Below, piece by piece: positions 18,834-35,195 of a stretch of 41,166 nucleotides of DNA (position 1 is the stretch's first letter; every line of letters starts with the position of its first letter). Source of the DNA: Bacteroidota bacterium (GTDB lineage: Bacteria > Bacteroidota > Bacteroidia > Chitinophagales > Chitinophagaceae); NCBI GenBank assembly GCA_029561255.1, contig JAKQJH010000238.1, positions 1 through 41,166 on the forward strand, read 5' to 3'. Below the pieces are notes generated by a model, which saw only the letters and a program-made list of their open reading frames with translations, was not told the DNA's origin and searched no databases. Made by a program: the position numbers and the translations under genes.

Positions 18834-18871
18834 GGGTATTGGCTTTGACTAATAATTTCAATGGACAAGAT

Positions 18872-20215
18872 ATGCAAAATTACCTGATTCGGAATATACA
18901 GCTCGTCAATGAAGGACGGATCCACACGGCTGATGTACTCCTCAAAAACGGACGAATTGAAAGGATCGGCGGACAGATCAATGAAACCAATGCCGCAGTC
19001 ACTGAAATCAATGGGGAAGGAAAATTTCTACTGCCGGGCTGTATAGATGACCAGGTGCATTTCCGGGAGCCCGGACTGACCCATAAAGCCACCATTGGCA
19101 CTGAAGCCAAAGCAGCCGTAGCCGGTGGGGTCACCAGTTTTATGGAAATGCCCAATACGATTCCCAATGCCCTGACCCAGGAATTGCTGGAAGAGAAATA
19201 CCAGATCGCTTCCCGCAGCTCGGTGGCGAACTATTCCTTTTTCATGGGCACCGCCAATAACAATACGGAAGAGGTACTGCGGACCAATGAAAAAAAGAGA
19301 GATATCTGTGGGATTAAAATATTCATGGGCAGCAGCACCGGCAACATGCTGGTGGATAATCCCAATACCCTTGACCGGGTGTTCCGGGAATCCGAAGTAC
19401 TGATCGCCACCCACTGTGAAGATGAATCCATCATTAAACGTAATCTGGATCGTCTGAAAGCGGAAGGTCGTGAACTGGTACCGGCTGATCACCCCATTAT
19501 CCGGGACGAGGAAGCCTGTTACGAATCTTCGCTCTATGCCATCCAGATCGCTAAAAAGTACGGCACCCGCCTGCATATCCTGCATATCAGTACGGCAAGG
19601 GAACTCCAGCTATTTACCAATATGTTTCCGCTGAAAGACAAACGCATTACGTCCGAAGTCTGTGTTCACCACCTTCATTTCACCAGCGATGATTATGCAA
19701 AACTGGGCAATAAAATAAAATGCAACCCGGCTATCAAAGCTCCCCACAACCGGGAAGAATTATGGAAAGCCCTGCTGGATGACCGGCTGGACATTATAGC
19801 CACCGATCATGCCCCGCATACCTGGGCAGAAAAAAATGAGCCCTACGAAAAAGCACATGCAGGTCTGCCCCTGGTGCAGCATTCTCTCCTGCTGATGCTT
19901 CATTATGTGAAACAAGGAAAATTATCCCTTGAAAAAGTAGTAGAGAAAATGAGTCATGCACCGGCTGACTGTTTCCAGGTAAAAGAAAGAGGCTATATCC
20001 GCGAAGGCTACCATGCCGACCTCGTGATTGCGGACCTCAATGAACCGTACACCGTCACCAAAGAAAACATCCTGTATAAATGCGGCTGGAGCCCGTTAGA
20101 AGGTGTTGAATTCCCGGCTAGCATTACCTATACTTTTGTAAACGGGCATTTGGTGTATGGAAATGGGGAGGTGAATGAATCTCAATTTGGTGAACGGTTA
20201 AAGTTCATACGCTAA
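18872..20215 (+). CDS. pyrC: Dihydroorotase
   Basis: LPGCIDDQVHFREPGLTHKATI, ATHCEDES, LHILHIST, DIIATDHAPHTWAEK. ATG 18872 preferred; the track starts at 18839. Confidence 0.93.
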   Translation: MQNYLIRNIQLVNEGRIHTADVLLKNGRIERIGGQINETNAAVTEINGEGKFLLPGCIDDQVHFREPGLTHKATIGTEAKAAVAGGVTSFMEMPNTIPNALTQELLEEKYQIASRSSVANYSFFMGTANNNTEEVLRTNEKKRDICGIKIFMGSSTGNMLVDNPNTLDRVFRESEVLIATHCEDESIIKRNLDRLKAEGRELVPADHPIIRDEEACYESSLYAIQIAKKYGTRLHILHISTARELQLFTNMFPLKDKRITSEVCVHHLHFTSDDYAKLGNKIKCNPAIKAPHNREELWKALLDDRLDIIATDHAPHTWAEKNEPYEKAHAGLPLVQHSLLLMLHYVKQGKLSLEKVVEKMSHAPADCFQVKERGYIREGYHADLVIADLNEPYTVTKENILYKCGWSPLEGVEFPASITYTFVNGHLVYGNGEVNESQFGERLKFIR

Positions 20216-20216
20216 A

Positions 20217-20299
20217 AAAAAGAACCAAGATGCCGAAAGAAGAACCAAGAACCAAAGATGCCAAGATGCCAAAGAAGGTTCAAATTACAAAGGACAAAT
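20217..20299 (+). repeat. Array A: AGAACCA/AGATGCCA 7-8 nt repeats
   Basis: AAAAAAAGAACCAAGATGCCGAAAGAAGAACCAAGAACCAAAGATGCCAAGATGCCAAAGAAGG. Confidence 0.9.
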
Positions 20300-20383
20300 A
20301 ATAAACAAGATATTCTAAGTTCTTTACTTCAGTTTTGGGATTTATGTTTTCTATGAACTAAAATACAAAAAAGTGTTACTGGG

Positions 20384-20749
20384 TCAGGAATCGCCTTTCT
20401 TTTTCAGAATGGCGGTAAAAATTAATACAAATTCTCTTGCCTCCTGTCTGAGTGCTGATCTTTCTTCTTCCTCCTTACTACTGCCATCCGTAATGACCAA
20501 CTTTAACCAATATCCTGATTCTTTTGCTTCACGACGGCAGGTTTTTATTTTCATAATAAAGTCCTTTCCACCAATTCCCTCGTTTGCTTCAATATAATTC
20601 GCACCTGGCGAACTTCCTGAACGTATCAATTGTGGTACAAACTCATTATTTGCCTGGTTTTTTGGCAACTTTAAACAGAAATCCCTCACACGTTCCGCAA
20701 ACCGACTGGTTCTATCCTCCAGATCAAATTTTCTATTATTTTCTGTCAT
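20384..20749 (-). CDS. Four-helix-bundle protein (S23 / 23S rRNA intervening-sequence protein family)
   Basis: RFAERVRDFCLKLPKN...FVPQLIRSGSSPGANYIEANEG...DFIMKIKTCRREAKESGYWLKL is the family signature; TAGGTTTG box 11 nt before ATG. Confidence 0.92.
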   Translation of the reverse strand: MTENNRKFDLEDRTSRFAERVRDFCLKLPKNQANNEFVPQLIRSGSSPGANYIEANEGIGGKDFIMKIKTCRREAKESGYWLKLVITDGSSKEEEERSALRQEAREFVLIFTAILKKKGDS

Positions 20750-20873
20750 TGGTTTTTAACCAAACCTAATAACAACTATTTTCATCGAGATGTCCAAAAC
20801 ACCACAATTTTCTGCTTTTTTCCCCCTCTTCATCTTGTCTTTTCCTCTTTCAACCTCTCCCTATTGATGCTTT

Positions 20874-21001
20874 TTTGATCCTTGTCATTTGGTCCTTCTT
20901 TGGCTTCTTGGCATCTTCGGTTCTTGGATCTTTTTTTGGCATCTTGTCATTTGGTTCTTCTTTCGGCATCTTGGCATCTTCGGTTCTTGGTTCTTTTTTA
21001 A
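20874..21001 (-). repeat. Array B: same family as array A, inverted, with an internal 62-bp tandem duplication
   Basis: Reverse complement reads AAAAAAGAACCAAGAACCGAAGATGCCAAGATGCCG...; TTGTCATTTGG starts at 20882 and again at 20944. Confidence 0.9.
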
Positions 21002-21004
21002 GTT

Positions 21005-22321
21005 ATGCAAATCGACCACACTTCCTTCAACGACATCTCCATCTTCCACCCGGAAGAGGAATTCTCCATATTCCATAAACTGAACTTTACCCGTACGGTG
21101 GGTGGACGGGAATGGTTGCGGAAGTTTTTTACGGAGCCGCACAGTGACCTGAATAAGATCAGGGGTACCCAGAAAGTGATCCGGACCTTTATGGAACATA
21201 TTCATCACTGGCCGTCGGAGATCAGCAATGGTACGGTGCTGGTTATCGATAAATTTCTCGACTACCCGATCGATCCGATCAGTGAGGCGCCCGCTTCTTT
21301 TAATAACCTGTTGTACAAATGGCTGCACAATGCGGATTATTCGATGATCAAATATTCGATGCCGCATTTCGGGGATTTTTTCCGGGGACTCCGACAGGTG
21401 TCCGAATTGCTGACGGACCTCGACCTGCCTCCCGCCATTAAATTATATGTGGACCGAATCAGCGGTTTACTCAAGGAACCTCCTTTGAAAAAACTGGCTG
21501 AAACGGCCAGGGGGGAACGGCTCAGTACAGGTCAGAATTTGTATTTCGCGTATCATATGCGTGGCCGGTATAAAAACAGTACGCTGGAACTGATTGATAT
21601 TTTCAGCCGGCTGGACGCCTGGTATTCGATGGCGGTGGCGGTTAAAACATACCAGCTCAGCTTCCCGGAATTTGTAGAACAAAGCACGCCCCTGGTGGAT
21701 GCCAAAGGACTGTACCATATTCTGCTTCCCACGCCTGTCGCTTACGACCTGCAAATGAATCCCGAACAGAATTTCGTTTTCCTGACCGGGGCGAATATGG
21801 CGGGGAAAAGTACACTGATCAAATCTGTAGGTGCCGCCGTATTCCTGGCCCATATCGGAATGGGTGTACCCGCCCAACACATGAAGCTGACCCTGTTTGA
21901 CGGGCTGCTCAGTAATATCAATGTAGTGGATAATATTGCCAAAGGGGAAAGTTTTTTCTTCAATGAAGTGCAACGGATCAAGAACACCATTGACAAAATA
22001 AATAACGGGAAAAAATGGCTGGTGCTGATCGATGAACTGTTCAAAGGAACCAATGTACAGGATGCCATGAAGTGTTCCCTCACCGTGATCAAAGGACTGA
22101 TCAAAATAAAAAATTCCCTTTTCATCCTTTCCACCCACCTCTATGAGATCGGGGAAGAGCTGAAAACCTATCCCAATATTTCCTTCCGGTATTTTGAAAC
22201 CAACGTTACCGAAGACCAGCTTTCCTTCAGCTACCAGCTCCGCGAAGGCATCAGCAATGACCGGATCGGCTATGTGATCCTGAAGCGGGAAAAAGTGGTG
22301 GAAATGCTGGAGAATCTATAG
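21005..22321 (+). CDS. MutS-related ATPase (short, lacks N-terminal mismatch-binding domain)
   Basis: FLTGANMAGKSTLIKSVGAAVFLAHIGMGVPA, LIDELFKGTN, FILSTHLYE. Confidence 0.9.
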   Translation: MQIDHTSFNDISIFHPEEEFSIFHKLNFTRTVGGREWLRKFFTEPHSDLNKIRGTQKVIRTFMEHIHHWPSEISNGTVLVIDKFLDYPIDPISEAPASFNNLLYKWLHNADYSMIKYSMPHFGDFFRGLRQVSELLTDLDLPPAIKLYVDRISGLLKEPPLKKLAETARGERLSTGQNLYFAYHMRGRYKNSTLELIDIFSRLDAWYSMAVAVKTYQLSFPEFVEQSTPLVDAKGLYHILLPTPVAYDLQMNPEQNFVFLTGANMAGKSTLIKSVGAAVFLAHIGMGVPAQHMKLTLFDGLLSNINVVDNIAKGESFFFNEVQRIKNTIDKINNGKKWLVLIDELFKGTNVQDAMKCSLTVIKGLIKIKNSLFILSTHLYEIGEELKTYPNISFRYFETNVTEDQLSFSYQLREGISNDRIGYVILKREKVVEMLENL

Positions 22322-31692: not shown

Positions 31693-31762
31693 AGTTCGAG
31701 GTTCGAGGTTGGAGGTTGGAGGTTCGAACCTCGAACTTCCAACCTCCAACCTCGAACTTCCC
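31693..31762. repeat. Inverted heptamer array: five RGTTSGA units facing five ACYTCSM units
   Basis: AGTTCGA GGTTCGA GGTTGGA GGTTGGA GGTTCGA | ACCTCGA ACTTCCA ACCTCCA ACCTCGA ACTTCCC; exact 7-nt phase over 70 bp, centre GGTTCGAACC. Confidence 0.95.
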
Positions 31763-34960: not shown

Positions 34961-34969
34961 AAAAGAAAA

Positions 34970-35047
34970 AGAACCAAGATACCAAGACGCCGAAATAAGA
35001 ACCAAGATACCAAGATGCCAAGAAGCCAAAGAAAAATCAAGAAGCAA
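34970..35047 (+). repeat. Array C: AGAACCA/AGATGCCA 7-8 nt repeats
   Basis: AGAACCAAGATACCAAGACGCCGAAATAAGAACCAAGATACCAAGATGCCAAGAAGCCAAAGA; same family as arrays A and B. Confidence 0.88.
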
Positions 35048-35139
35048 AATACAAACTGTGAGCTTATGGTTACGATTATGAGCAATTTTCGTAAATGAGA
35101 TTCAGTGGTAAATATGATAATGCTCTAAGATGGCTCCCA

Positions 35140-35195
35140 ACACCTAACAGCTAACAGCTAACACCCGACACCCGACACCTGACACCCGACACCCT
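35140..35195. repeat. Heptamer array of eight ACANCYN units
   Basis: ACACCTA ACAGCTA ACAGCTA ACACCCG ACACCCG ACACCTG ACACCCG ACACCCT; exact 7-nt phase. Confidence 0.93.

Follow-up and report, generated by a model that had tools for sequence, protein, structure and literature searches.

Structures of the widespread S23 proteins have been available since 2006, but to our knowledge no function has been assigned to them. The STRR, LTRR and TAACTGA repeats of bacteria have been described repeatedly, and we know of no explanation for their 7-nt period or their patchy distribution. In Beggiatoaceae, cyanobacteria and Bacteroidetes, the TAACTGA heptamer has been described as a repeat without explanation (PMC4679880). 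The 23S rRNA intervening sequence (IVS) of Coxiella is an S23 open reading frame (ORF) between terminal inverted repeats, whose 28-bp stem is cut by RNase III, and such sequences are regarded as selfish and possibly mobile (PMC4990558). Homology of the S23 family (PF05635) with Avd has also been noted (PMC10053308). Here we analysed a 41,166-nt stretch of Bacteroidota DNA (the window), in which an S23 gene is framed by inverted arrays of heptamers. Among openly licensed papers, preprints aside, which dealt with S23 of the rRNA IVS, with Avd, with PF05635 close to retroelements and CRISPR, or with heptamer repeats, we found no link drawn between S23 and heptamer arrays, and an earlier description is possible.

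Where a dihydroorotase-like amidohydrolase gene adjoins the gene of a MutS domain V protein (the pyrC/mutS junction), one S23 gene lies between two oppositely oriented short-unit arrays (Table 1), and S23 is the only gene of this cassette. The left array begins directly after the amidohydrolase stop codon, and the right array contains a 63-nt duplication. The arms form an inverted repeat of 83 nt with 82% complementarity (positions 20226-20308 and 20864-20946) and also contain one perfect 24-nt and one perfect 15-nt inverted pair; when joined, they have a predicted fold of -109.5 kcal/mol. Their alignment score of 46.5 was the highest of 78 loci, the best of about 6,000 cross-pairings reaching 28.5. 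The initial annotation of this DNA, which had placed the S23 gene between inverted short-unit arrays, was borne out on this point and on the outer heads, TAAAAAAAAGAACCAAG on the left and TTAAAAAAGAACCAAG on the right in reverse complement; the TAA of the left head is the stop codon of the preceding gene. It had also seen a shared tail extending past the short units. This sequence (CAAATNACA) is present, but it is a variant of the unit, found again as CCAAATAACAAGAACC in arrays without the gene in a related genome. The cassette lies between two protein genes, outside any 23S rRNA gene; no tRNA was found in the window, and an Rfam scan of the window gave no match, rRNA included.

Four further short-unit arrays in the window, all missed in the initial annotation, have no S23 gene (Table 1). 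The unit type GTTTAGAC of one of them also flanks an S23 gene elsewhere in the host genome (L002, contig C15), and the ACACCCG unit of another is the reverse complement of the GTGTCGG-type unit at S23 gene L007 (contig C398). The array at 31694-31757 is an intergenic, near-perfect 30-bp palindrome of heptamers with a 3-nt loop.

Table 1. Features of the S23 cassette, its neighbours and the other short-unit arrays of the window.
Feature	Position	Strand	Remarks
Gene-less palindromic array, unit GTTTAGAC	12593..12696		Fold -42.9 kcal/mol
Dihydroorotase-like amidohydrolase gene (pyrC of the initial annotation)	18839..20215	+	Pfam PF01979, E 4.7e-20; flanks the cassette
Left array	20216..20308	+	AAGAACC / AAGATGCC units; downstream array of the S23 gene
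S23 / 23S rRNA-IVP family gene	20384..20749	-	121 aa, four-helix bundle; PF05635, E 2e-9
Right array	20864..20999	-	Units of the left array in opposite orientation; upstream array of the S23 gene
MutS domain V protein gene	21005..22321	+	PF00488, E 4.4e-33; flanks the cassette
Gene-less palindromic array, unit GTTCGAG/GTTGGAG	31694..31757		Fold -56.2 kcal/mol
Gene-less array of the cassette's own unit (AAGAACC / AAGATACC)	34965..35052	+	
Gene-less array, units AACAGCT / ACACCCG	35139..35194	-	

The window S23 protein passes the curated cut-off of the PF05635 profile (38.1 against 33.8 bits), and its AlphaFold2 model (mean pLDDT 88.5) matches the solved S23 proteins 2rld (TM 0.78) and 2gsc (TM 0.76), which points to a four-helix-bundle fold. 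The model also resembles Avd, as had been suggested from the sequence, although this match is weaker (4dwl, TM 0.63). Both solved S23 structures contain five chains, and by analogy with these relatives the window S23 is probably a homopentamer. The structure comparison found no nuclease-like fold for S23, which we regard as a helical bundle akin to Avd, with no recognised catalytic domain. The absence of a reverse transcriptase (RT) from the window, also stated initially, was correct, and RVT_1 had no match in the host genome (76% complete) or in most genomes of the genus.

Ten S23 matches were found in the host genome (3.63 Mb, 413 contigs). Nearly every one of these genes is framed by inverted short-unit arrays, each with a different unit (TAAGTTR, GTTTAGTY, GGCAGKR, TTAGTAG, GTACGAA, GTGTCGG, AAATAAG and AAGAACC), and at some loci only one flank is visible because contig ends cut them. 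For 130 distinct S23 genes from the host family, many from draft genomes, and for a first set of 78 loci, we locally aligned each 400-nt upstream flank with its 400-nt downstream counterpart in reverse complement. A gene's own flanks exceeded the 95th percentile of cross-pairings in 109 of the 130 cases and the 99th in 81; the 95th percentile was exceeded by 5 of 127 control flanks taken 400 nt farther out and by 20 of 130 in a same-orientation control, and 21 of the 130 genes had no significantly matching arms at this level. Gene by gene, a score of 14 was reached by 4 of 5 S23 genes versus 5 of 602 other genes in 760 kb that were read without regard to S23, except that the G028 stretch was picked for its five S23 genes. 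Inverted arrays are associated with S23 genes across the host family, an enrichment that, together with presence or absence of the cassette in relatives, had been named initially as a test; both outcomes favour the initial interpretation.

Autocorrelation within the arms was 0.50 at 7 nt, 0.46 at 14 and 0.35 at 8, with about 0.27 elsewhere, and the units are mostly 7 nt long and specific to their locus. On the sense strand, G exceeded C in the upstream arm at 79 of 94 loci, so the orientation of the element is fixed relative to transcription. A conserved S23 location with AAGGTAC-type arrays was observed at a pyrE-like/NUDIX-like junction in three species of the genus, where two of the three S23 genes have an internal stop codon.

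The arrays had initially been taken as one repeat family (GAACCAAG), but a single family for all S23 loci was rejected: the unit differs at nearly every locus and follows the S23 clade. Over 3,896 non-orthologous pairs, with units compared by alignment score, protein identity was correlated with unit similarity (Spearman 0.18, a value reached in 0 of 500 Mantel permutations); mean unit similarity was 0.40 above 60% protein identity versus 0.17 below 25%, and an opposite-strand control was flat. A scan for one narrow S23 clade in the genomes of 84,980 species returned 80 loci from about twelve phyla (Bacteroidota, Cyanobacteria, Acidobacteriota, Planctomycetota, Verrucomicrobiota, Lentisphaerota, Balneolota, Desulfobacterota, Nitrospirota, Bacillota, Elusimicrobiota, Marinimicrobia and others). 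Many of these loci, unrelated to one another, have AGTCAGR-type units before S23 and CTYCTGA-type units right after its stop codon. Own flanks exceeded the 95th percentile of cross-pairs at 26 of the 80 loci, a control inflated here because all loci share one unit, and far flanks did so at 0 of 74. In cyanobacterial plasmids, S23 genes from other clades have GGGAACA, AAAAGCT, GGGAAAA or GGTGACA units around them, heptamers of a type long familiar in Nostoc; S23 genes of Nostoc plasmids are framed by GGGAACA, AGTCAGG and similar arrays. At one locus (L080) the S23 gene is framed by a TAACTGA array.

S23 genes at eight loci in Acidobacteria and Clostridia/Bacillota were found inside a larger element, whose ends are non-coding and conserved and which also has a divergent ORF (MNAFFEHHKDSIRFGYRCFDRLLLNGLIQPF...); it looks like a separate mobile element carrying an S23 element. 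The only known RNA family detected at the Acidobacteria and Clostridia S23 loci with conserved flanks was an FMN riboswitch, at one locus.

Presence or absence of the cassette was found at the pyrC/mutS junction in relatives and also in cyanobacterial plasmids. Among 18 further genomes of the genus that keep pyrC beside this MutS gene, three have an S23 gene at the junction (G044, G058 and G071, always on the strand opposite to that in the window), nine have a gene-less short-unit palindrome (GTGAATRG in six, other units in three) and in six the gap is short and plain. In the closest relative (G044, whose MutS is 94% identical), the S23 at this junction is just 69.3% identical to the window S23, whereas an S23 at another locus, between two transhydrogenase genes in G050, is 79.5% identical. 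These results indicate that the elements are not simply inherited in place.

Three of the plasmid sites count as cases of presence or absence. On Nostoc plasmids, an S23 gene with AGTCAGG arrays exactly fills the space from one stop codon to the next start codon; in five plasmids that lack the element these codons are separated by 3 bp, and one of the five has a different S23 gene with GGGAAAA arrays in the next gap. The third site occurs with an S23 gene and GGGAACA arrays, empty, and with a gene-less GGGAAC palindrome that starts from the same left end; at the fourth, S23 lies between cas10 and cmr3 in PCC 7003 and is absent in PCC 7002. Empty plasmid sites have gaps of 0-12 bp, arrays and gene arriving together. 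When filled and empty plasmid sites were compared, the ends abutted the stop and start codons and no clear target-site duplication was seen; GGTTCTA on the left and GGATTCTA on the right of the third Nostoc site are suggestive of one but also fit the repeat unit. CRISPR loci of cyanobacterial plasmids hold S23 genes with arrays at three loci, in cas10/cmr3 and cas6/cas4 gaps, and S23 elements within CRISPR loci may explain why PF05635 appears as CRISPR-linked in large surveys. Two near-identical plasmid loci (L251 and L252) differ in the upstream array by two heptamer units (14 nt), so the number of units changes quickly.

Array density was 0.6 per 100 kb in S23-less genomes of the same genus, which equals the shuffled level, and 6-13 per 100 kb in S23-bearing genomes. 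The S23-less members are mostly small genomes; a check of large S23-less genomes of the family, on 180 and 200 kb only, gave 1.7 versus 13 arrays per 100 kb, which argues against genome size as the sole cause of array absence. Pattern counts in 42 genomes of the genus were also made for two units. AAGAACC arrays had 33 matches in the host genome, 73 in G058, 12 in G044 and at most four in all others, with window-type S23 genes present in these three genomes and in G050 and G071 (p = 0.002). GTSAAT arrays had 2 to 166 matches (median about 45) in ten genomes with the matching S23 clade and 0 to 11 elsewhere, with one exception (p = 2.5e-4). Both values were computed among S23-bearing genomes with relatedness ignored and are optimistic, overstating the evidence, because species are not independent; controls with clade and unit swapped gave p = 0.46 and 0.20. 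The GTSAAT exception is G099, with 53 matches and no close clade member, whereas for AAGAACC, G067 has four matches without a window-type S23, and G071 and G050 show the reverse, with hardly any arrays.

Array dispersal is correlated with the cognate S23 in both unit families. A strict rule, by which each gene-less array would have a cognate S23 in its genome, is unsupported: non-adjacent arrays found their best match in their own genome in 4 of 13, 7 of 19 and 6 of 19 cases, where 1 in 6 is expected, and many gene-less arrays had no cognate S23 in the sampled set. G058 contains twenty AAGAACC array loci without S23, most of them palindromic, and many of its loci consist of one to four tandem copies of a hairpin unit, about 100 nt long, in which AAGAACC arms enclose a conserved loop (CCTCCTGCCCATGAGGATTGAAAGTATGACAATTGG).

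We consider it probable that the cassette represents a small mobile palindromic element in its gene-carrying form, in which S23 recognises the heptamer array of its own element and serves gene-less copies in trans. The ends of such an element would be inverted arrays of an approximately 7-nt unit, with S23 as the single gene between them. Because S23 is the only constant partner of a unit, we infer that it recognises the array and that palindromes with this unit need it to spread or to be maintained. Recognition of its own unit could be in single- or double-stranded nucleic acid, the most likely target being the hairpin made by the two arms, and would be needed for keeping and spreading elements with that unit. 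Palindromes that share the unit but lack the gene would then be dependants served in trans, as REPs are by RAYTs. Since S23 has no known catalytic domain, strand transfer would probably fall to host enzymes of replication or repair that act on the hairpin. Kinship with the 23S rRNA IVS suggests that S23 may recognise an RNA hairpin, and the data are compatible with RNA or DNA.

Our confidence is evenly divided on a wider proposal, that the orphan STRR-type heptamer repeats seen in cyanobacteria, Bacteroidota and further phyla belong to a single class of palindromic mobile element, with members that carry the gene and members that lack it, in which each unit family is recognised and propagated by its own S23, with no dedicated transposase or RT. 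This would bring together two old puzzles, S23 and the heptamer repeats of bacteria, as components of a single kind of mobile element, with the resulting hypothesis that each S23 binds its own heptamer. If so, S23 would be a mobility factor that binds palindromic arrays in a sequence-specific way, a protein function not known to have been described before; there would be a kind of mobile element without a recognisable recombinase, residing inside operons and CRISPR loci; and the origin of the intergenic palindromes in these genomes would be explained.

A somewhat unlikely alternative, much of which is compatible with a mobile palindromic element served by S23, is that the cassette is a relative of the IVS acting at the RNA level. 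The arms would pair in the transcript, RNase III would remove the S23 piece with little harm to the host operon, and S23 would bind RNA, spread being passive or through an RNA intermediate. The Coxiella IVS, with its S23 ORF and its RNase III-cleaved stem (PMC4990558), is consistent with this, as are the G-rich upstream arms, the predicted fold of the joined arms of the window cassette (-109.5 kcal/mol) and the position of elements inside operons, exactly between stop and start codons (cas10/cmr3, and the 3-bp gap of the Nostoc plasmids). However, the described IVS stem is no heptamer array, and an RNA-level process alone fails to explain why gene-less copies follow the cognate S23. An RT cycle is also unsupported, and dependence on an RT as a requirement was rejected: RVT_1 was found in 6 of 42 genus genomes and in none of the array-rich G041, G061, G103, G104, G071 and G066, complete genomes among them.

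It is quite improbable that the arrays are made by the host, as slippage-grown simple repeats or hairpin terminators, with S23 merely settling or being tolerated there. Heptamers are the commonest long simple repeats in prokaryotes, for which polymerase slippage has been proposed (PMC4679880), and the S23-less palindromes at the pyrC/mutS junction of nine relatives would fit such an origin. Against this, array density falls to the shuffled level in S23-less genomes of the genus, the unit follows the S23 clade across loci and phyla in a fixed orientation to the gene, and the empty plasmid sites show arrays and gene arriving together.

We give very little credence to the possibility that these are true REP/RAYT or IS200/IS605 relatives, moved in trans by a Y1 tyrosine transposase with S23 as a passenger or accessory. 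The palindromes are small, dispersed and intergenic, and Y1_Tnp genes occur in 18 of 42 genus genomes, but the complete, array-rich G103 and G066 have no Y1_Tnp match, by which dependence on Y1 or RAYT as a requirement was rejected; moreover, each unit family has its own S23 and no Y1 protein of its own, and no Y1 gene lies inside the elements examined. The initial description of the cassette as a non-autonomous, REP/RAYT-like element fits the gene-less palindromes better, as the cassette carries a gene, and RAYT membership fails because the element has no Y1 transposase and some array-rich genomes lack one altogether. An addiction or regulatory module resembling type III toxin-antitoxin systems, spreading as a selfish gene pair, would account for a protein gene preceded by a tandem array and for its occurrence on plasmids and in CRISPR operons, but is just as hard to credit given two inverted arrays rather than one, 7-nt units where the known type III antitoxin repeats are longer, ten or more different S23s possible per genome, and no nuclease-like fold in S23.

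Several known systems share features with the element described here. Foldback elements also have long inverted ends made of short tandem units, but they are eukaryotic, much longer and without S23. Avd of the diversity-generating retroelements has a related fold, although RT, template repeat and variable repeat are absent here. The STRR and LTRR repeats of Nostoc and the TAACTGA repeats share the 7-nt period, the tandem units and the intergenic position, but they are described as repeats of unknown function, and the accessible papers name no S23 partner for them. The 23S rRNA IVS of Coxiella and Leptospira encodes the same protein family in an ORF between terminal inverted repeats, as at the window locus and most S23 loci of the host family, whereas the elements here are intergenic or plasmid-borne, lie outside rRNA, end in short-unit arrays that differ at nearly every locus, and have dispersed gene-less copies. 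REP/RAYT systems likewise combine dispersed intergenic palindromes with a single-copy gene that is flanked by the same repeats and, by analogy, would act in trans, and palindrome dispersal is correlated with the gene in two unit families, with exceptions; unlike in those systems, the cassette has no Y1 (HUH) transposase, its protein is a helical bundle, and its repeats are arrays of an approximately 7-nt unit that come in many families per genome.
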